This document shows positions 1 through 55,364 of a DNA stretch of 64,000 nucleotides, piece after piece. The notes below the pieces were generated by a model. It worked only from the letters and a program-made list of their open reading frames with translations, had not been told where the DNA came from and searched no databases. The position numbers and the translations under genes were made by a program. The DNA comes from Glaciozyma antarctica PI12. Lineage: Eukaryota > Basidiomycota > Microbotryomycetes > Kriegeriales > Camptobasidiaceae. The stretch is taken from NCBI GenBank assembly GCA_002917775.1, contig KZ627157.1:11650-75649 (forward strand), written 5' to 3'. Within the stretch, counting starts at the first letter, position 1. The number at the start of each line of letters is the position of its first letter.

Positions 1-286
1 TTGCCCGACCTGCCTGCTTTGAAACCTGCCCGTGTCGAGTACGGGGGCGCTGAAGGAAGCAAACCAGCTCTGCGCAGGTGCGCTGATTCAGGAGTGAGAA
101 CAGGAAGCGACGCCGCGGAGGCGTGAGGTGTTGGCGCTCCCCCACCTCGTGCACTTAGCCTAGGATTTTGAACTTTTGCGCACCCACTCTCGCACCCATA
201 GACACAGCTCAACGTAGCCAATGCATTGCAAACACTTCTACCCAAACGCAGGCAAAGAGCAGAGACGAGAGGACGGCGAGAGCAAG

Positions 287-1351
287 TCAAGGCACGACGC
301 GAAGCTCCCGCTCGACCTTTGAGAGTGACAGCTGCAACGAGCAATAGTCAGCGGGAGTACGGTGGGGAAGGAACGACGGGAATCACCCCGAGAGTCGAGC
401 AGTGCGGCCTTGTTGGCGCCGCGAGGGGCGAGCTGCCAGTCAGTCGGACGAGGGACGGGAAGAACAAGCGACGCGGGTCTCCAACGAGCTCGAGGTCTCG
501 CGTGCGAGCGTCCCGGGGAGCAGCTACGTGAGAGTGAGGAGTCAGTAGCTACGAGAAGCGAGGACTGACGCAGCTCACCATCGAGCGTGAGTTCTGCGGG
601 CCAGCGACGTCAAAAGTGGCTGCGAAGAAGCAACGGTTCAGTCGTGGCGAGGAAGAGAGCGCGAGCAGCTCACCACCAAGCGTGAGGGTCTGCGCGTCAA
701 CGTGGTCGAAAGCGGCTGCGAGCGAGCGAGGGTTCAGTCGTGGCGAGGGAGGGAGGGCGAGCGAGCTCACCACCGGGCTTGAGGTCCTGGTCGCCAGCGA
801 GGTCGAAGATAGCTGCGAAGGTGCGAGGCTTCAGTCGTGGCGAGGAAGGAAGAGCGAGTGAGCTCACCAGCGAGGTCGAGATCCAGCGAGTACGGAAGCG
901 GCTGCGAAGGTGGGAGGCTTCAGTCATGGTGTGGGAGAGAGAGAAAGCAGGCTCACTACCCAGCTCGAGGTTCCGCTCGCCGACGATGTCGAAAGCAGCT
1001 GCGAAGGTGCGAAGGTTGAGCCGCGACGAGCGAGGGAGGAACGAGCAGCTCACCAGCGAGGTCGAGATACCGCCGGCCAGCGAGGCCGAAAGCAGCTGCG
1101 AAAATGTGAGTTTCCAGTAACTGGAGCGAGCGAGAACCCAACTGACTCACCAGCGAAGTCGAGATCCTGCTCGCCAGCGAGGTCCGAAGCGGCTGCGAAG
1201 GCGCAAGGGTTCAGCAGATGCCTGGGTAGATGACCGACGCAGCTCACCACCGAGCTTAAAGTCCTGCTTGCCAGCCTTGTCGAGAGCAGCTGCGGAGGAG
1301 CAAGGCTTCAGTGCGGGCCATGTGGGATGAGAGATGAGGGTCGAAGCTCAC
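287..1351 (-). repeat. Tandem array of ~97-bp units, each an exon plus an intron
   Basis: A degenerate unit recurs with anchors at 331, 432, 523, 619, 715, 812, 901, 998, 1095, 1192 and 1289, so most steps are 96-97 bp. Read on the minus strand, each anchor is a 3' splice site (CGCAG or CGTAG followed by C). About 42 nt further on there is a GTGAG 5' splice site. Introns lie at 332-386, 524-578, 620-673, 716-770, 813-867, 902-956, 999-1053, 1096-1150, 1193-1247 and 1290-1351. Eight of the ten are exactly 55 nt. Exons are 42 nt at six sites plus 482-523; 579-619 is 41 nt and 868-901 is 34 nt. Most introns keep a CTGAA/CTGAC branch-like element. The donor after 482 is lost (GAGAC in place of GTGAG). 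The periodicity and splice sites are seen directly; splicing itself is inferred. Confidence 0.9.
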
Positions 1352-1579
1352 CACCGAGCTCGGGACTTCACCACAGCGTGGCCACAGCAACGACTCCTAC
1401 GGCCCGTCTCTCACTCCCTAGTCAGCACTACCGTCTACCTGCAAAACGACACGTTTAGCTACCGCGAGCTGGGGTCCTGTGACGAGCGCGCGGTCTCCTC
1501 CCCTCATCCGACGCGTAGACGACTCACCGAACGCGTTGTTGTCTTCCTGACTGGGGGCCTCGACTTGATTCGGTTCCAT
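287..1579 (-). CDS. Putative micro-exon gene built from a repeated 14-residue exon
   Basis: Most exons of the array are 42 nt with the same phase, so splicing adds 14 residues at a time. Translations include AALDKAGKQDFKLG (1248-1289), AASDLAGEQDLDFA, AAFGLAGRRYLDLA, AAFDIVGERNLELG, AIFDLAGDQDLKPG and AAFDHVDAQTLTLG (674-715). Codons in this frame are C/G-ending, as in neighbouring genes. A possible first exon begins at ATG 1579 and ends at a GTGAG donor near 1528, but no clean junction to the array was found. The 34-nt exon breaks frame unless skipped; skipping it keeps phase. The 41-nt exon also shifts frame, giving a stop near 440; otherwise the frame ends at TGA 287-289. No known family was recognised. 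It could be a functional variable protein, a decaying gene, or an amplified exon with no product. Start and end are uncertain. Confidence 0.35.
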
Positions 1580-2500
1580 CACGCGGGGAGACTTGTGCTA
1601 GTCCAGAGAGAGAAGAATAAGCACTTGCGAGCACGCGACGAGGGGGGAAGCGAGAGAGGGGATCACACTCACTCTTTCGCGCTGCCAATCCGCGCTCGTT
1701 AGATGGCCGTCTTCCCGTATCCTGTTGAGGGGGAAGAGCGCGTCTCTGTCGAGGGGGACTCGAAAGGGTGACGGTGGGAGGGAGAAAGGCGAAACGAGAG
1801 AACCGGGAGCTCAAACAGGCAGCGCTCGTGCCTCCCTTCCATCCTTGGCTTCCGCGCTCCGCAGCTTCCCACGAAAAAGGGCTACTCGCACGGTGGGGAA
1901 CGAAGCAAGAGCAGCTTTGTGCATCATCCTGGAGAGGAGGCCGGCGAGACACGATCCTTGCGGGTCGCCTCTCGCTCGCTGCCAAGTGCGAAGAGCGGAC
2001 AGACGCCGCTGTATGAAGCAGAACTAGGGGGCCAATCCGTCCTGCGGTTCGCAAAAGGAAAAGCTTAGAGCAGGAAGCGCTTCTTGTCGTCCTGTTCGAC
2101 CGTAGAACAGCTCGCGATACACCTTGGGGGGCAGGCGAGGGACGAGCTTCGTGCGTGATCTATGCACCGGAAAAAGCTTCCGCCTTGTCGCCGAGGAAGG
2201 TGGCGGTTCGAGAGGGAGCAGGCTGCTCTGTGAATCGAGTTTAAAGGGTACTGAGCTGAGCCGTTCGAAGAGGCTGTGGGCACGCAGGCCTGCCAGGTCG
2301 CTCGAGTCGGCGGGCGCGAACGGCCACAGCTCAGTCCACCTGCGAGGCGTTACCTACCGGAAGCGTAGGTCCGTTTGCGGGACTGGAACGAACGGGGGGA
2401 GGGGGCCAGGGGAGCAGGGAGGGAACAAGCATCTACCCACCAGCCTTCGCCCCCCGCCTGTCCCGCCAACTCCAGCTGCTCCGTCGGCGACGCCGGGCAC
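1580..2500. other. No recognisable gene between the array and the next gene
   Basis: Both strands hold only low-complexity open frames rich in R, S and P, with no codon bias, domains or ordered splice sites. It probably carries the upstream regions of the minus-strand array gene and the plus-strand gene at 2501, which point away from each other. Confidence 0.5.
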
Positions 2501-3489
2501 ATGCCTCCGCCGACTCCCCTGTCTCCTTCCTCCTCCGACGTCTCTCTCCCGGCCTACATCGACAGACTGCGGCAGTACATCCACGCCCGACTTGGCCCAG
2601 AGTACTTCGCGTCCTGCGCCTGGCGGGACTACAAGCTGAAGCTCGCGCAAGACGCACCGGGCGCCCCCGACGACACCTTGGACTCGCTCAAGCCCTTCTG
2701 GATGGATCGCGTCCTGATGGAGAAGGGAATAACGCCGGCGGAGGTGGAGGAACGTAGCTGGTCGCGTTTGACGGGAGGCTGGGCGGAAGCAGCAACACTG
2801 CGTGAGCGGTTGGCTGCAGGGGAGTACACGGAGCTGTTCGAGGCGCGGGCGGGCTTGGACGAGGCGAGAAGGGAGCCCGGGGTGGAAATGGAGGCAGAGG
2901 AGACTGGGTTGATCAAGGAGGAGGTGCGTTCTGAGGCCTGTTGAGGAAGGGAGTCGTCGAGCTAACTTCCTCCCTTCTCGTCGCAGGCGTGCGACGACGT
3001 GGGCTTTTATTCTTTCACAGAGTTCACCGAGTAAGAAGCGATATTGGTAGACGTGAGTCTGAGCATGCTGCTTTCGAGCTCGCTAACGTTCGTCCACAGA
3101 AAATGGCGCAGGAAGCGATTGACCGTCTAGCGAGCTACGCTGCCGAGGCGGCCGCGAAACAGGTCAGGAACTTCTCAGACTCGCCTAAGCTGTACTGACC
3201 TTGTACCTCCCTGCAGAACTCATCACCTGTACGCAGGAAGCGCGTCGCCGCCGAAACTCCTCGCTCGTCGCGGACTCTTCGCTCCAAGACGATCCTCACC
3301 CCCGGCAAGAACACCGCACGACCTCCTCCCGCTCTTCAACGAGAAGTCTTTCCACCCGATGAACACTCATTCCCCTCTCCCTCGCCCTCTCCAAATGACA
3401 GACACGAGCTCGAACGGGATAGGAGCTCCTGCGAAGGCAGCGCGAGGGACGCTTGGTTGATTCGATGTTGTTTGCAGCCGATGTTGTAG
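2501..3489 (+). CDS. Unrecognised protein, multi-exon
   Basis: I do not recognise this protein. The start is set at ATG 2501, giving [13 protein letters not shown], because the longer upstream frame is low complexity. Exon 1 (2501-2923) encodes a helical, charged stretch including [20 protein letters not shown]. The clear later exons are 3100-3162 ([21 protein letters not shown] region) and 3217-3489, ending at TAG with a basic S/P-rich tail that includes TILTPGKN. Between them, 2987-3030 has good splice sites and a plausible peptide ([15 protein letters not shown]) but is 44 nt, which throws exon 3 out of frame. Either this exon is skipped, with exon 1 joined directly to 3100, or a base is missing. 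The tail suggests a nuclear protein, but this is only inference. Confidence 0.55.
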
Positions 3490-3709
3490 CTTGGTTGAAT
3501 CCTTGACGGCGTTGATCTGTTCTAACGCCTCGAGAGTTGCGACGAGTGGGGGAGGGGAGCGCAACAAACGACGCAAGTTCGGATCCTCTGATCACCTCCC
3601 TCCTCCCTCACCGTCGCCAACTCAGCCCTCCTCAAACACGACTTTCTTTCGTACGGCACTCTGCCGCGCACTGCACCGACTGCCAAGCGCCACTCCGATC
3701 CGCCGCACG

Positions 3710-5768
3710 ATGGCCTCCTCGACCTCTGAACCCGCCCCCATCGCATCAACCTCCGCCCTCCCAGTCGCCTCTCCGCCCGCCAAGCTCGAAGGAAACGAGT
3801 GGTGGGACAGCATCGGGAAGCCCAAGTATGTCGTGGCGCCCATGGTGGACCAGAGTGAGCTGGTGAGTCGCGCTGCTCTCTTTTTTCGTTCAGCTGTAGG
3901 GGAGGACTGGGGCGAACGCGATGGGCCGATCCTGCCGCTGGGGGGATTTAAGCCAGGTGTGGGAAGACTAGGAGCGCGATTTGGGACTTGGGAGCACGAG
4001 CTGACGCGCTCACCCCGCAGGCCTGGCGCATCCTCTCCCGCCTGCACGGCGCCACTCTCGCCTACACCCCGATGTTCCACGCCCACCGATCACTCCTCCA
4101 CCGAGCACTCACGTTACGCCCAAGAGCAGTTCGACACCTCGGCCCTTTCGCTCGAAGGCAAGGCGCCGTACGATCGACCTCTCGTCGTCCAGTTCTGCGC
4201 GAACGACAAGGATGCCTGGCTAGGTGCGGCGAGCAAGGTCGTAGGGCACTGCGACGCGGTCGACCTCAACCTCGGCTGTCCGCAAGGAATTGCGAAGAAG
4301 GGAAAGTACGGAGCGTTCCTGATGGACGAGTGGGAGCTCATCGGCGACATGAGTGTGTTCTCTCTCCTCCTGGCGTTCTGTCGCCCCCAAGCTGACATTT
4401 CCCGCTCACAGTCACCCATCTCCACACCAAGCTCCCTATCCCCGTCATCGCCAAAACCCGCGTCTTCCCTTCCCTCGATCGCACTCTCGCCTACGCCTCT
4501 CATCTCCGCGCCGCAGGCGCTCAGCTCCTCACCATCCACGGCCGTACGCGCGAAGCGAAGGGACAACAAGCAGGACTCGCGTCGTGGGAGAAGATTGCAG
4601 CCGTCGTCGCCTCCCAGGAAGGCATCCCCGTCCTTGCGAACGGCGGAGTCCCAAGCGCCGAGGAGGTGGAGCCATGCCTGGAATCAACGGGAGCGGTGGG
4701 AGTGATGAGCGCCGAAGGGAACCTCTACAACCCTATGATCTTCGCGCCGAGCAACGTGGGAGGTGGCAAGGTTTACGGTCGCTGCCTCCCCGTCGAGATG
4801 CAGGACGCTCTCCGTGCGTGCGACGACGAGCTGGAGGGCAGCTGGGCCGAGGATGCGGCGTACGGCCCTTCGACCTGGCTCGCTGCGCAGTACCTCGCCA
4901 TTGTTCGAACCCTTCCCTCGACGCGGACGTCTTCGTCGGCGATCAAGAGCCACCTCTTCAAGCTCTTCCGACCGGTGTGGGCGACTGGACGGCATCTCGA
5001 CTTGCGTGAGGCGCTGGGAAAGGCTGGAGCAGGGAAGGAGACGCAGGCTCAGCGAACGGAGCAGTACGCAAAGGTGGTGGTTGAGATGCTGAAGAAGCTC
5101 AAGGTGCGTCGTTTCGTTGCGCAAGTGGAGGGAGGGAGAGCTGACGGGGATGCCTTTGCGCAGGCGGATCTCGCGGAAGGACTTCTCCCTCCCAACTCGT
5201 TCCGACCGCTCACGCACGCGGAGGTCGTCAAGGACTTTGGCGGCGTCATCCCCTACTCTCACGCTCAGCCGTACTTCCGCATCGCGCCCAACGAGCCCGT
5301 CGCTGCTCCCTCGATCGCCGACCGCAAGCGTGCTCTCTCCAGGGATCGTCAGTACGCTTCTCCTTCCTCCTTTGATCATTGCTGACTTCCTCTCTCTCTC
5401 ACGCAGCTGCTAGCTCCCCCGAACCCGCCCCCGCCGAGAAGAAGGCGAGATTCGACCCCACCTCCATCCCCGTCGCACCAGTCGTCACGACGCCCTGCGT
5501 TCGCTCCACCGCCACTCCTCCATGCAGCAACGCCTCGGCCAGTCGCTGCGCCTTTAGCGCCTGTATCACATGCTGCTTGCTGCTCAGCGAGGACGACGCC
5601 GTCGAGGGAAGCTCGTGCGAGTTTCACGAGAGCAAGCGGATCAAGACGAAGGAGAAGCAGGACGCGAAGAAGGCTGGCGGCAAGACTCGCAGGGCGGAGT
5701 CCAAGGCGAAGAGGACGTCGAACCTGAAGGAGCAGGAGGGAGCGGCCCAGGACGAAGCTTCGCTGTAA
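3710..5768 (+). CDS. DUS1: tRNA-dihydrouridine synthase 1 (DUS1)
   Basis: This FMN enzyme reduces uridines 16/17 in the D-loop of cytoplasmic tRNAs. The N-terminal motif [19 protein letters not shown] and the active-site stretch [19 protein letters not shown], with the catalytic cysteine, identify the Dus1 branch. [11 protein letters not shown] and VLANGGV complete the TIM-barrel phosphate-binding parts. Exons: 3710-3862, 4021-4352, 4412-5103, 5164-5347 and 5407-5768. The last exon encodes a Lys-rich tail ([17 protein letters not shown]). Inside exon 2 the frame moves by one base between about 4081 and 4110: YTPMFHA is in one frame and [10 protein letters not shown] in the next, with no GT-AG intron available to explain it. 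Conservation on both sides points to an assembly error more than a dead gene. Confidence 0.9.
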
Positions 5769-5950
5769 CTCGGGTACCTCGTTCAGCTGCATCCGAGGCT
5801 CTCGTAGAGTCTTGTCGTGCTTTCAGCTTCGAGCTACCGTCGAGTGGATCGGCACCGCCAGCGTCGAAAGTCAAACAGCACGTCCAGCAGGAGCATCAGC
5901 AGAGGTCTCCGCCGCCTCTCCCAGCTGCACGACAGAATCCATACAATGCG

Positions 5951-6610
5951 CTACGCTCCACCCGCTTGAATCGCCCGTCCAGTCCCCGCCTTTGCTGCTC
6001 CCGCACCTTCCTGCGCCGCCGCTTGTCGCTGTTGCTGCACCAGCGTTTGAAGGTGTACCAACTGCTTGCGCGCGAATCAGCTCACTGCTGGCTCTCTCCA
6101 AGCAAAGGCTGGAGCGTACCTCCATCTTCTTCGCCTCGAGCTTGCCGTCCAGCTCGGCCAGCTGCGTCTCGACGCGCTTACTGCTCAGCACCTCATCAGC
6201 TCCCCTCGCGCCGCGATCCCAGCAGAAGAGCACGCACATCTCGCCGGCAATGAACTCTAACCGCTTGCTGACGTTCGCCTTGGCCTCGCTCTGGTCCTGC
6301 TTGAGTAGCACGGGTCCGACCTGCTTCCACACCTGGTTCGTCGGCAGCAAGAGGGCGAACTCCTGCGCTTGAGCGTTAGCCAGAGTCGGCCCCAGGCGGA
6401 CAGGACAGGGACGAGCCTTCTGTACACTCTCATTCTCCGACTTCTGCGCATCCAGGCGCTGGCGGCTTTCGACGCAGACGGCGTAGTCTGCAGGGAAGAC
6501 GCGGAACGAGGTGAGCTCGGGAAGCGCTAGGAGGACGAGCGTAGAGCCTTACCGGATTGTAGCTTCTGGTACACCTTAGTTCCAGCCTGAATCTGAGCTT
6601 CCAAGGACAT
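5951..6610 (-). CDS. YKE2: Prefoldin subunit 6 (beta-type)
   Basis: This is a subunit of the cytosolic prefoldin hexamer, which passes unfolded actin and tubulin to the CCT chaperonin. It begins MSLEAQIQAGTKVYQKLQS (exon 6553-6610) and continues from 6487 with RQRLDAQKSENES. A beta-hairpin core follows (EFALLPTNQVWKQVGPVLLK, then RLEFIAGE), then the second helix (KRVETQLAELDGKLEAKKME) and a Q/A-rich tail ending at TAG 5951. This order of helix, hairpin and helix, and the ~130-residue length, fit the family. The intron after SENES can be read as GT-AG, dropping VQK, or as GC-AG, keeping VQK as homologues suggest. It lies downstream of ISWI on the same strand. Confidence 0.9.
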
Positions 6611-6920
6611 GGCGACGGAGGGACAGCGAGGGAGAGGCGGAGGAGGTGGCCGGAGGAGGAGCTGAGTAGCGCGATGGGGACTTGAGTGATCGTCGGGACT
6701 GTTCCTGGGCGATTCGGCGAGAGGAAAGCTGTACGGAGGAGAGCTGAGTTCGTGCGGAGTGTTGCGGGAGCAAGAGAGGGAGCAAGTCGAGCACGCGTCC
6801 TCGCTGCCCGCCTCCTCCTCGCGAAGTCCCCTCTCCTCGCTCTCAAAAGTCATTTCCCGATCAACGTCCATGCGAAAGGTAATCTGAAAGCGCACAGAGC
6901 ATCGTACATTCATCTCCAAC
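6611..6920. other. Spacer between ISWI and the prefoldin gene
   Basis: Both neighbours are on the minus strand, so this should hold the ISWI 3' end and the prefoldin 5' region. Nothing else is seen. Confidence 0.5.
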
Positions 6921-9900
6921 CTATCTCCTAGCCTTCTTACTCGCCCCAGCCGGCGTCGAAGCCCGCGACGTGTTGGACTGCTCCTCGGCGGGCCTCTTCT
7001 TCCCCTTCCCCTTCGCTCCGTTCGCCGGCTTCCCCTCCTCCACGTCAAGCTCCTTCTCGACAAGCGCCACCAGAGTGGTGCACCTCCGACCGATCTCGAC
7101 CGGCGTGCGACTCTTGAGGAACCAGTCGAACCTGCGACATTCACAAGTCAGTAAGGTCGTTACGTGCGCGTCGTTGGGCTGCTCACCTGAAGGCGGGGAA
7201 CTCGGCAATGTCGCGCTTGATCTGCTCGAACGTGTCCTCCTTGCCGACGCCGTACTTGGCGACCTGGCAAAGGAGGAAGCGGTCCTCTTCCTCCGAATAC
7301 GACTTGCCCTTCGTCTGGTTGGCGTACTGGACCCTGAGGAGCTGGAGCGGGAACGAGACGCTGTCGACCTTCTGCTTGACGAGAGCCCATTGACGCTCAT
7401 CCTTTTCGCGACGAGCTTCGGCGTCCTCGATCTTCTTGATCTGCTTCTCGTGGTCTGCGAACGTGGCGAGCTCAGTCTCGGTACAGATGGCAACGTCGGC
7501 AAAGCAGACGTACCGTCGATCTCGGTGTAGCGGTCCCAGAAGACGCTCGCGTACTCCTTGATCTCCTCGACCGACTTGGAGGGAACTTCGATCTGGATCG
7601 CCTCGAAAGCGTTCCTGCGACGAGCGACGACATCAGCGGGGCTCGTCAGCAAGTGAGCTGCGACAACGCTCACCTTCCGTAGAACTCGCATCCTCGAATG
7701 AAGCCCTGGTACTCGCGCTTGTTCCAGTCGTGGAAGCCGAGATCAGCGAGCGCCTCCTTTTCTGCAGCTTCCTCCTCCGTCAAAGGCTCGGCTGAAAGCA
7801 CGAAAGGCGATCAGCGAAGGAGCAATGCCAGGAGGACATGAGCGAACCATTCTCGATGAGCTCTTGTTCCGCAGCCTGTTCAGCTTCGAGATCCTCGGGC
7901 GAGACGGCAGGATCTTCGCGAAGGGGGACGACGTAGCCTTGAGTTTTCTGCGGACGGCAGACGTCAGTACGGCGGAGCGGGGAGAGCTCGTGCGGAAGAC
8001 GCACGCGGAAGTGAAGCGACTCCTTCTCCTGGAGCTCAACGAGACGAGGAGGGAAGAACTGGAAGTCGTTCCTGAAACGAGACACGTCGTCAGCAAGATG
8101 CACTCAATCCAAAAAAGACGACGTACGCAGAGAGCTGCTTGGGAGCACGAGGTGCCCTGGGACCCGTCGCACGACCCGGTCCAGTCTTCAACGTGTCGCG
8201 ATAGTAGCTATCGACCGAGTAGTTGGTCTTGCGTTCGCGCTTGGAGGGCTCGATCCAGGCGAGACCGATCTTCTTCTTGCCGCCGTAGTCCTCGCCCTCC
8301 CAGTTGGTTGTCGTCTCAGACTTGAAGATCTGGAGGTCGTCGAAGTTGAGCTGCGCGTACTTGGAGTTGAGCTCTTGCGTGCGAGCCTCGCCGCGCGTGA
8401 TGATGTCCTCGATGTCGTCCTGAACGAGCATCGATTCGCTCGAGTTGATGATCTTCTCGGCTCCATGCTGAATCATATCGACGAGGTCGTCCTTGTTCGC
8501 AGCTGCGAGACGAACCGCGTCAGCCGTGCTGCGGAAGAAGCTCGAGACGAGAGGACGCACTCTTAGTGCTCTGCTGAGCACGACCCTGCTGAATGACGAG
8601 CTGGTCGAGACGCAGCTTCTGAGCAGCCCGCTCAAGGACCTTCTCCTCGACGGCGTTCTGCAGATTGAAGGTCAGCAGCGCTTCTCACAGTCTGCGCACA
8701 CAACTGCGCACCTCCGTGACGAAGCGGAAGACGTAGACCTGCTTGGTCTGGCCGATTCGGTGAGCTCTGCGCGTGGAGAGCGGTCAGCGTCTGTCCAAGG
8801 CGCGCGAAGCTCTCGATGTACCGATCCATGGCCTGCAAATCTGCTTGAGGGTTCCTGAAGAAGGCGAAGGCATCAGCGAAGCCGCGCAGAATCGACGGAC
8901 GCGCGCGACGACGTACCAGTCCGAGTCGTACAAAACGACAATGTCGGCCGACGTGAGGTTGATGCCGAGTCCTCCAGCGCGAGTCGTGAGGAGGAAGATG
9001 AACTTCTCCGATCCGGGCTTGTTGTACGCGTCGATCGCCTCCATACGGTCGTCGTGCGCCGTTCCTCCGTCCAGTCGGCAGTATTCTATCGAGTCGTGAG
9101 GTCAGCACGCGGAGCTTCCGGCGCAGGAGGCAAGAACGCACGGTATTCGCGGAACATGCAGTAATCCTCGAGGATATCGAGAACACGACTCATCTGGGAG
9201 AAGATGAGGACGCGCGATCCCTTGGCCTTCATCGACTTGAGGAGCTTGTCGAGGATGAGCATCTTGCCCGAGCTGTCGATAAGGTGCTCGTCGGTCGTGA
9301 AGGGAGGTCCGGGTTCCTAGAAGCCAAGGTCAGCTTGAGGAGAGGGATGAGCGAAGAAGACGACGTACCGCGCCATCGAAGAGGTACGGGTGGTTGCAGC
9401 ATTTCTGTGGGCACCAAATCAGCACACGCTCGAACGACAGCTGCCAGAAATAAAGAGACTCACGCGAAGCTGCATGACGATGTTCTGGAGCCTCGTCTTG
9501 CCCTCCTTCTTCCCTCCAGCACCTGCGAGCAAAGCGAGTCGTCAGATGCGCCTCACCGCCTCAAGCCCACGAAGAGCAAACGCACCGTTAACCGCATCGA
9601 TGTCCTTCTCCAAGATCATCTTGTACCACTTGCGCTGCAGCGCGGTCATGCCGACGTAGACGTTGATCTCCTTCTTGGGGAGCAAGCTCTTCTCGACGTC
9701 GGCCTTGACGCGACGCAGCAGGAAGGGACGGAGAACGGCGTGGAGCTGCTTGACGACCGAGTTGGACGCCTCCTCCTTTTCCGCCGCCGACTGGTCGGCA
9801 ACTTCTCCGTCGGCCGTGAGCGCGGGCGCTTGGCGCTCGAACCAGGCGTCGAAGTCGCTAACGTCGGAGAAGACGTCGGGAAGGAGGAAGCTGCGGGCGA

Positions 9901-11942
9901 AGAAGGTAAGTAGACGTCGCGCTAGTCAGTTGCGAGAGGATAACGCACTTGAGGAGAGCCCAGAGCTCGTGGAGGTTGTTCTGAAGAGGCGTTCCGGTGA
10001 TGAGGAGCCTCGCACGCGAGTCGAAGACGCGGACGATCTGACTGAGCATAGAGTCGACGTTCTTGATGCGATGAGCCTCGTCGATAATGATGTACTCCCA
10101 TGCGAGCTTCTTGAGCGCGCCCTTCTCGCGAAGGCAGAGCTCGTACGAGGTGATCAGGACGTCGAACGACTGCGACAGGATCTTGCTCTGCACGACTTCG
10201 GCCTGCGCACGGTAACGCAATCGTCAGCTTTCATCGGGAAGGGAGAGAAAAGCGAGAGCGAGAACGTACGCGTTCCTCCTTTCCACCGCGAAGCATGACG
10301 ACGTCAAACCCAGGGACCCAGCGCTCGAACTCGCGAGCCCAGTTGTCCAGAGTACTCTTCGGAACGATGACGAGATGAGGGCCATGGACGCCACGGTGGA
10401 ACTTGAGGTAGCCGAGGAAAGAGATCGTCTGGAGAGTCTTGCCGAGTCCCTGAAACGCGCGATTCGTTAGCGACAACGTCGCGTGAGACAGTTGGAACGC
10501 AGAAATGCACCATCTCGTCGGCGAGAATACCGTTGATACCGTTGTAGTGGAGTCCGACCATCCAGTTGAGTCCCTGGACTTGGTAGTCCCTCATCTTGCC
10601 GCCCTTGACATCTGCGACGTGCGAGTCAGGACCGGCGTCGTCGACGAGCAACCGAAAGATAAACTCACAAGGCGGGGATTCGGTGAAGACAAAGGGTCCA
10701 TCGCCCTCAGCAGCAGCGTCGGCCTCCTTGGACTCGGCGAGAAGCTCATCGTCCTCCTCCTTCTCGGTCTTGCGTCCTCGCGAGGTCGTCGCCTTGCCCT
10801 TCCTACCGCAGTGCACGTATCAGCTCGGTTCTTCGGTCCTCAATAGCAGCGGAATGACTTACTTGGCCTTGCCCTTGCCGAGGGCCTTCTCCGACTCGGC
10901 GAGCATGGCGGCGAACTCGGGATCACGCTGCGCCTACGAATCCACAATGCGTTAGCTTTTCATGTCTCCCGAACGAGTGCGCGCGTACCTTGAGATCACA
11001 GAAGTGGCGGAACAGGTCCGTCTGCCCGAGCAGGTACGAGAACCGCTTGATCGAATCGGCCGACTTGAGCGTTGCCTGCTTGGCCCTCTTCGACGCAAAC
11101 TGTACCAGCCAGGCATTAGCTAACTTCTCGTAGCCGTGCAATCGTCACAGAGAAACGCACCTGGTCCTCCATCTCCTTCTTCGCCTCCTTCTTCTTGCTG
11201 ACCGCGACCTTCCTCTCCTTGGCAGCTCCCTCCCTCTTGAGCACACTCGGCGCCTTCCCCTTCATCTGAACGTCACCATCGTCGTCCTCTTCCTCCTCCT
11301 CCTCCTCCTCTTCCTCCTCCTCCTCCTCCTCCTCCTCGTCGGACTGGGTAGGCTGGCGCGAAGGGACGCGAGAGACTTCGTTGGAACCGGGGATGTAGTC
11401 GGAGAGCTTGTCGGCGTCGTCGGGGAGGGAGAGAAGAGGGTTGGGGGCTTTGCTGCTGGACTGCTAGACTGAAGGAGGAAGGAGTCAGTGCAAGCTCGCT
11501 TGAGGGCAGTTTGAGGGAGGGAGGCGCGACGCCTCCGCACCGAGCGTCCTCGTCGGGACAAGAGCACAACCGCACAAGCTCCCAGGTTCTTCGTCAAGAG
11601 CTAGCGCTTCTGTTGAGACGCCGTGTCGAGGGAGGCTTGCGTTGCCCGTCGATCCCCTCCTCGCGCGGGCTGTTTCGCGCCCGCCTGCCAGGCACCGCGC
11701 CGAACGACTCCGCCATGCCCCACTCAAGCGCGTATCACGGCGTACGAGGTGTCGCCCATTCTTGGCGAACGAGCAGCGGCCGGCCTGGGCGAGGCTCGTT
11801 GAAAGCAGGAACGCGTTGCGCCCTTTAACTAGTCACACTCCGCCAGGAACGCCTCAGCATGCCACGCCACTGGTTCCCCACTCCCCTACAGCCACGAAAA
11901 CTTGTTCAAGCCATCTCAAAAGGCACGGCGACTTACAGCCAT
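6921..11942 (-). CDS. ISWI-type chromatin-remodelling ATPase
   Basis: This is the catalytic subunit of an ISWI nucleosome-spacing complex. The first coding exon is only ATGGCT (11937-11942), followed by a 473-nt intron. Exon 2 (11161-11463) starts QSSSKAPNP and carries a long Glu/Asp run. Further exons are 10989-11099 ([14 protein letters not shown]), 10863-10933 and onward. SNF2 motifs appear in order: [15 protein letters not shown], Walker A with an intron between DEM and [27 protein letters not shown], then the helicase C half with [24 protein letters not shown] and DRAHRIGQ. HAND, SANT and SLIDE follow ([51 protein letters not shown]). It ends in a basic tail at TAG 6921. No frame break was noticed over more than 1000 residues. 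ISW1 and ISW2 are not distinguished. Confidence 0.95.
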
Positions 11943-54819: not shown

Positions 54820-55364
54820 AGGAGGAGGAGTGGGATGGATATAATGGCATCCATGTGTTTTGAAGTACTCGAGGAGTGTCGTCTCTTCGTCGTGTGTCTG
54901 CTCTCCACAGCCTCGCTCGTCGATTCCGGGTTCTTGCGCCGACGCCAAGTGCTTGCGAAACCGGCTTCAGCTCCGTCGAGAGAGTGGCTGGCGCTTCGAC
55001 GATGAGCTCAGTTCCAGAAAGACGAGGAGCTCAGGGAGGAGAGGAGAGGAGCGGAGAGGAGGAGAGGAGAGGAGAGGAGAGGAGAGGAGAGGAGAGGAGA
55101 GGAGAGGAGAGGAGAGAAATCTAGCGATATCCTGTCGAGACTTGCGAAGGTGGCGAAGCGAAGGGCGTGAGCGCGTGAGCGTTCGCAGCCCTCGGTTCGT
55201 CGATCAGCGAGAGGCGCACCTTGACGCGGAATGCGCAGGCAAGAACGGCGGCAAGGCCACACGGTCGCGGACAAAGCAGAAGGTGGGCGAGCAGGTGCCG
55301 AATGCACAACTCGACCTGAACTCCCAACGGCACGACACGAAAGTCACAAAAGCCCTTCTATTCC
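54820..55364. other. Convergent 3' region with a purine microsatellite
   Basis: It holds the 3' ends of SER3 (+) and BIO2 (-). Apart from the repeat at 55035-55116, nothing is seen. Confidence 0.5.
55035..55116. repeat. Microsatellite, (GGAGA)n
   Basis: About 80 bp of near-perfect 5-bp GGAGA units, with a few interruptions at the left end, seen directly. All-purine on one strand. Confidence 0.95.

Follow-up and report, generated by a model that had tools for sequence, protein, structure and literature searches.

A tandemly multiplied exon-intron unit in a probable orphan gene of Glaciozyma antarctica with decaying coding capacity

Near a contig end of Glaciozyma antarctica PI12 lies what is probably an orphan gene that contains a tandemly duplicated exon-intron unit and whose coding capacity is decaying. 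This assessment, made from the sequence, draws on splice signals that stayed nearly constant while the introns around them diverged, on exons that vary less than the intron interiors, and on a module frame that is now broken. The array is located on the minus strand of the window, which here means the whole analysed stretch of 64,000 nucleotides on contig KZ627157.1 (referred to as C12); coordinates of the window copy are window positions. The units of the window array are numbered u1-u11, and c7, c8 and c9 designate units of a second copy on contig C14.

Layout of the array and its surroundings

When read by its splice sites, the minus strand from 1396 to 332 comprises eleven units of about 97 bp, each consisting of an exon and an intron (Table 1). 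Tandem Repeats Finder reported a repeat at 570-1102 with a period of 97, 5.6 copies and 71% matches. Adjacent copies align over exon plus intron at this period, which characterizes the array as an internal tandem exon duplication. Both the splice-site reading and the repeat finder thus bear out the first-pass annotation, which had proposed about eleven tandem units of this size. Its count of ten GT-AG introns, eight of them 55 nt long, likewise stands, with the doubtful intron after exon 10 left aside. The annotation had also described an exon of about 42 nt in the same phase for each unit. This holds for six of the eleven exons (2, 3, 4, 5, 7 and 8), all of which are 42 nt long and in phase 1, but not for exons 1, 6, 9, 10 and 11, whose deviation the annotation left unmentioned.

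Table 1 Features of the window copy. On the minus strand, each exon starts at its higher coordinate.
Feature	Position in window	Strand	Description
Exon 0, candidate first coding exon	1528..1579	-	ATGGAACCG...GCGTTCG; ends in phase 1; donor GTGAGT
Candidate intron 1	1439..1527	-	GTGAGT...GCTAAAC...TTTTGCAG; GT directly after acceptor
Unit 1 exon	1352..1396	-	45 nt; degenerate; TGA in module frame
Intron after exon 1	1290..1351	-	62 nt
Exon 2	1248..1289	-	42 nt; AALDKAGKQDFKLG
Intron after exon 2	1193..1247	-	55 nt
Exon 3	1151..1192	-	42 nt; AASDLAGEQDLDFA
Intron after exon 3	1096..1150	-	55 nt
Exon 4	1054..1095	-	42 nt; AAFGLAGRRYLDLA
Intron after exon 4	999..1053	-	55 nt
Exon 5	957..998	-	42 nt; AAFDIVGERNLELG
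Intron after exon 5	902..956	-	55 nt
Exon 6	868..901	-	34 nt; unit minus 8 nt; frame broken
Intron after exon 6	813..867	-	55 nt
Exon 7	771..812	-	42 nt; AIFDLAGDQDLKPG
Intron 7	716..770	-	55 nt; same as corresponding C14 intron (comparison by eye)
Exon 8	674..715	-	42 nt; AAFDHVDAQTLTLG
Intron after exon 8	620..673	-	54 nt
Exon 9	579..619	-	41 nt; 1 nt short; frame broken; C14 unit of equal length
Intron after exon 9	524..578	-	55 nt; acceptor CGTAG
Exon 10	486..523	-	38 nt (or 42 nt); in-register donor lost (GGAGAC); GT 4 nt upstream
Doubtful intron after exon 10	433..485	-	53 nt with the upstream GT: GTTGGA...GGCAG
Exon 11	387..432	-	46 nt; unit strongly diverged
Intron after exon 11	332..386	-	55 nt; GTGATT...GCTGAC...TTGCAG
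Last exon	287..331	-	possible end ...RVVP-TGA

Contig C12 reads N from position 1 to 11649, up to window position 1. These 11,649 N before the window are either a gap or withheld sequence, so that the array is only presumed to lie near a chromosome end; the gene near the contig end is probably subtelomeric. Among the open frames scanned, the first neighbour of the array recognised by Pfam is a dihydrouridine synthase (Dus) gene at 3461-5382. Two of its introns, identified by eye (GTGAGT...CTGAC...CGCAG and GTGTGT...CTGAC...CACAG), have splice signals arranged much as in the array. Elsewhere in the window, a GAGGA pentanucleotide array with 16.6 copies occupies positions 55036-55116.

Splice signals and coding evidence

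Variability was compared column by column in nine well-aligned units, namely u2-u9 and c7 from C14, the intron of which is identical to that of u7. The strongly diverged units u1, u10 and u11 were omitted, as were c8 and c9, which are near copies of u8 and u9. The nine signal columns, defined as GTGAG and the final four intron positions, exhibited a mean pairwise difference of 0.025 compared to 0.411 in the remaining intron, a contrast that was reached in none of 200,000 permutations. The window units u2-u9 alone gave 0.028 and 0.439, respectively. All five donor columns (GTGAG), the CT of the branch motif CTGA and the acceptor AG were invariant in the nine units. The earlier claim that the signals were kept while the interior varied is well founded on these values.

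At the edges of the array, agreement with the consensus falls to 17 (u1) and 14 (u11) of the 42 exon positions, yet both units have kept the GT in register and the terminal AG. Unit u10, with a match of 28/42, has lost the in-register GT, and its terminal AG is out of register and so not in the shared column. Over the whole array, GT occurs in register at 10 of the 11 donors and AG precedes all 12 exon starts, although the latter count is partly built in because the splice sites were used to define where each unit begins and ends. The introns show the features of spliceosomal introns, with a GT donor, a CTRA-like branch and an AG acceptor. Chance does not account for the pattern: a combined GT-branch-AG expression matched seven times in the 1.1-kb array, compared to densities per kb of 0.49 for the remaining minus strand and 0.52 for the plus strand. 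As the densest other stretch of 1.1 kb on either strand reaches five matches, this density carries less weight than the even spacing of the sites.

Since the signals were kept while the intron interiors drifted to a pairwise difference of about 46%, the array would have been spliced unit by unit in the past. We infer that it belongs to a spliced transcript that was formerly coding. The array is a natural mutation-accumulation record, in which eleven copies of a single intron within the same gene directly reveal the positions that splicing needs in this fungus.

The exons themselves are less variable than the introns. With 18 signal columns set aside, exon columns differed pairwise by 0.318 and non-signal intron columns by 0.463 in the nine units (permutation p 0.00055). 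For codon usage, a score was trained on three conserved genes from the same genome (UDPGP, Dus and a methyltransferase domain); of the ten open frames scanned for their selection, five contained Pfam domains. When each was left out in turn, the training genes scored 0.22-0.31 in frame and gave negative values in the two alternative frames on that strand. In the module frame, AAFDLAGEQDLELG, exons 2, 3, 5 and 7 reached 0.49, 0.41, 0.29 and 0.39, while exons 4, 8, 9 and 10 scored 0.05, 0.15, 0.00 and 0.08 and exons 1, 6 and 11 were negative. As the exons derive from a common ancestor, these scores amount to roughly a single observation; a score of 0.39 is also attained by 10% of random 42-mers when the best of their three frames is taken. 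One antisense frame also scored 0.20-0.36 in exons 2, 3, 5, 7, 8 and 10. Because this is close to the module frame, codon usage leaves the strand unsettled, and it is the splice signals that settle it.

At the level of substitutions, seven exons (u2-u5, u7, u8 and c7) gave a pN/pS of 0.78 in the module frame and of 0.78-0.99 in the other five frames (reverse frames 0.78-0.82). The third-position excess in the same exons was not significant (p 0.23). Exon 0 differs from its counterpart on C14 by six substitutions in five codons, all of which change the residue and none of which is silent, so that no purifying selection is visible in this exon. There is moderate support for past coding of the AAFDLAGEQDLELG frame, which would then have been under weak protein constraint.

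The first-pass annotation had each exon add an in-phase module of 14 residues, a claim that is unsupported: clean modules are present in only 6 of the 11 exons, and the annotation had missed the breaks in the frame. The frame is broken by a TGA in exon 1, by the loss of 8 nt in exon 6 (34 nt) and by the loss of 1 nt in exon 9 (41 nt), and a transcript of all exons is closed. Starting at the ATG at 1579 and including all exons, translation ends at the TGA in exon 1. Without exon 1, translation runs on into exon 6, where the missing 8 nt change the frame, with stops following in exons 8 and 9. From this ATG, no reading frame remains open across the exons as it would in a micro-exon gene, the first stop lying in exon 1 or, with exon 1 skipped, in exon 8. 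The minimal change that reaches the last exon is the skipping of exons 1 and 6, which yields 157 residues from the ATG at 1579 to the TGA in the last exon. As 640 of the 2048 possible exon combinations can be read from this ATG into the last exon, a single open subset proves little. Read in the ATG frame, the intron 1 acceptors common to both copies (window 1438, C14 820) are followed by stops within ten codons.

Another frame, frame 0, was considered and rejected as coding. It is open through the eleven exons and the last exon up to the TGA of the latter, but has no start codon available in exons 1-8. Within exon 0, the matching frame contains a TGA that overlaps the ATG, and no further ATG comes after it. 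Taken exon by exon, the codon score of frame 0 is negative in seven of the eleven exons; since exon 6 is 34 nt long, frame 0 coincides with the module register in exons 7-9 when it is read continuously.

A second copy on contig C14 and searches for relatives

Contig C14 begins inside a paralogue of the array in the same orientation, which is shorter, degraded and cut by the contig end. It aligns with window positions 308-887 over 580 bp at 96% identity and with the region around exon 0 over 246 bp at 81%. With the upstream part of C14 as query, the second match extended to 362 bp of C12 at 77% identity. The array on C14 has five GTGAG donors at 657, 560, 463, 366 and 271, spaced by 95-97 bp. 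Its upstream part is also derived from the array, as indicated by an alignment score of 121 compared to at most 80.5 in 300 shuffles. Within this paralogue (C14 1-1100), the last units are near-identical to the window copy and the upstream units are degraded: one acceptor is gone and the donor of exon 0 reads GC, while the ATG and the length of exon 0 are the same as in the window copy. Splice sites thus also decay in this array, albeit less rapidly than the sequence around them. Compared by eye, intron 7 does not differ between the copies, while exon 7 shows agreement at no more than 30 of its 42 positions. The near-identity from intron 7 to the contig end, adjoining this poorly matching exon, suggests a recent exchange with its edge at that donor.

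In both copies, a GT directly follows the acceptor of intron 1 (window 1438, CAG/GTAGAC; C14 820, CAG/GTGAGC; the slash marks the border). The acceptor together with this GT may be likened to a zero-length exon or a ratchet site, and clear homology between C12 and C14 ends there.

Array-wide and sub-array searches of this genome revealed no further copies beyond those on C12 and C14, counts that are lower bounds. A pattern search of the genome gave six places, all within the C12 array. The expression GGTGAG-x-GGTGAG-x-GGTGAG had 29 matches, seven of them in the two arrays; as the reversed control had 14, the remaining 22 do not stand out clearly from chance. On these results, the genome was judged to contain no large family of such arrays.

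Protein searches yielded no homologue at E <= 1, either for the module translation (452 candidates) or for the unspliced frame (296 candidates). As a control, the methyltransferase protein encoded on C14 returned 93 matches, including Rhodotorula, so that fungal proteins were covered. The best organism-named relatives of this methyltransferase belong to the Microbotryomycetes, with identities of about 40-45%, among them R. toruloides with 44% over 61%; the nearest match has 94%. The host is thus a relative of the red yeasts, probably other than R. toruloides, and the mention of red yeasts in the first-pass annotation is roughly right. A comparison of the array with plasmids gave no match.

Origin of the array and comparison with known systems

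According to the favoured reading of a decaying orphan gene, one 97-bp unit, consisting of a symmetrical 42-nt exon and a 55-nt intron, would have been repeatedly duplicated in tandem to form the middle of the gene, with unequal exchange as the putative means of multiplication. The transcript would have been spliced unit by unit as the copies diverged, and its exons would have encoded 14-residue modules in the AAFDLAGEQDLELG frame, giving a repeat protein under weak constraint. The frame of the window copy would have decayed later, by the TGA in exon 1, the 8-nt loss in exon 6 and the 1-nt loss in exon 9. As the module frame is broken, a gene that is losing its coding function is the likeliest present state. 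A transcript may still be made and spliced.

A working micro-exon gene, in which the skipping of at least exons 1 and 6 leads to one or more open isoforms of 14-residue modules, appears unlikely. Exons 2-5, 7 and 8, being all 42 nt long and in phase 1, would fit such a gene, as would the 157-residue frame that opens when just exons 1 and 6 are skipped. However, with 640 of 2048 subsets open, openness is not rare, the ATG frame meets stops within ten codons of the shared intron 1 acceptors, and a protein homologue at E <= 1 was not found. Exon skipping of the schistosome type, though conceivable, is unsupported. It is likewise unlikely that the locus is a probably subtelomeric orphan micro-exon array in which splice signals are selected above the protein, and in which the number of units and their skipping set the modules and the frame that are translated. 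Splice signals that are near invariant, clear protein constraint in no frame and the broken module frame would also agree with a spliced non-coding transcript, with the array being kept for splicing (intron-mediated expression or RNA stability) and the exon content free to change. We regard this as distinctly unlikely, as exons vary less than intron interiors (p 0.00055) and four exons have a gene-like codon score in the module frame.

The 97-bp tandem period with 71% matches and the position of both copies near a contig end are reminiscent of an ordinary untranscribed minisatellite, the unit of which would resemble an exon and an intron by chance. Yet the column pattern tracks the splice signals (0 of 200,000 permutations), and u1 and u11 keep GT and AG at less than half exon identity to the consensus. 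A plain minisatellite was rejected by the signal-column and exon-intron column tests, and we consider this origin highly unlikely. An assembly artefact is barely credible: 11,649 N directly precede the window and a contig end truncates the second copy, but the units differ from each other at about one third of positions and the second copy is divergent.

In schistosomes, the coding region of micro-exon genes (MEGs) is mostly made up of very small symmetrical exons, and the genes are expressed with alternative splicing that leads to protein variants, according to the excerpted text of PMC4350168. The excerpt of PMC9168663 describes the bicycle effector genes of aphids as fast-evolving, with many unusually small single-phase internal exons, nearly all of them in phase 2, and a mean of about 17 exons. 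Compared by description, the array may resemble MEGs in having very small symmetrical exons, although just six of the eleven are 42 nt long and in phase 1, and it resembles bicycle genes in its small single-phase exons. Unlike MEGs, it consists of tandem copies of one unit, has mostly 55-nt introns and is broken in frame in several exons; unlike the aphid genes, it has phase 1 exons in tandem copies and a fungal host. Both animal gene groups are, in these excerpts, expressed and open, whereas the module frame here is broken. This raises the question of whether micro-exon arrays of the kind seen in animal parasites arise in fungi, and what their fate is once the frame breaks.

Introner-like elements insert as introns alone, at dispersed sites, in unrelated genes. 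Here, exon and intron were copied jointly in tandem, and instead of dispersed copies in unrelated genes we found only two loci, the C12 array and its C14 paralogue (a lower bound). The multiplication of related introns by introner-like elements of fungi is described in the excerpt of PMC4457414. The Xlr2 microexon of Trichoderma virens provides a functional fungal microexon and in this respect a likeness, but it is single and regulated and forms no array. The abstract of a 2024 study states that functional microexons were previously undescribed in filamentous fungi. For the SP7 effectors of Rhizophagus and the wtf drivers, the source excerpts describe within-gene repeats and mention no exon-intron array. 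While internal tandem exon duplication is already known, the open-access matches listed included no description of a fungal gene in which a 97-bp exon-intron unit is present in about eleven copies, and a search for literature linking Rhodotorula toruloides and microexon found none.

In fission yeast, one new intron per gene is reported for SPOG_01682 and SOCG_00815 at 24-nt repeats with cryptic sites, according to the excerpt of PMC3629103. This is also a case of fungal introns arising with tandem repeats, and may be regarded as a smaller relative of the process behind the array. Unlike in fission yeast, a finished unit of exon and intron would have been multiplied about eleven times here.
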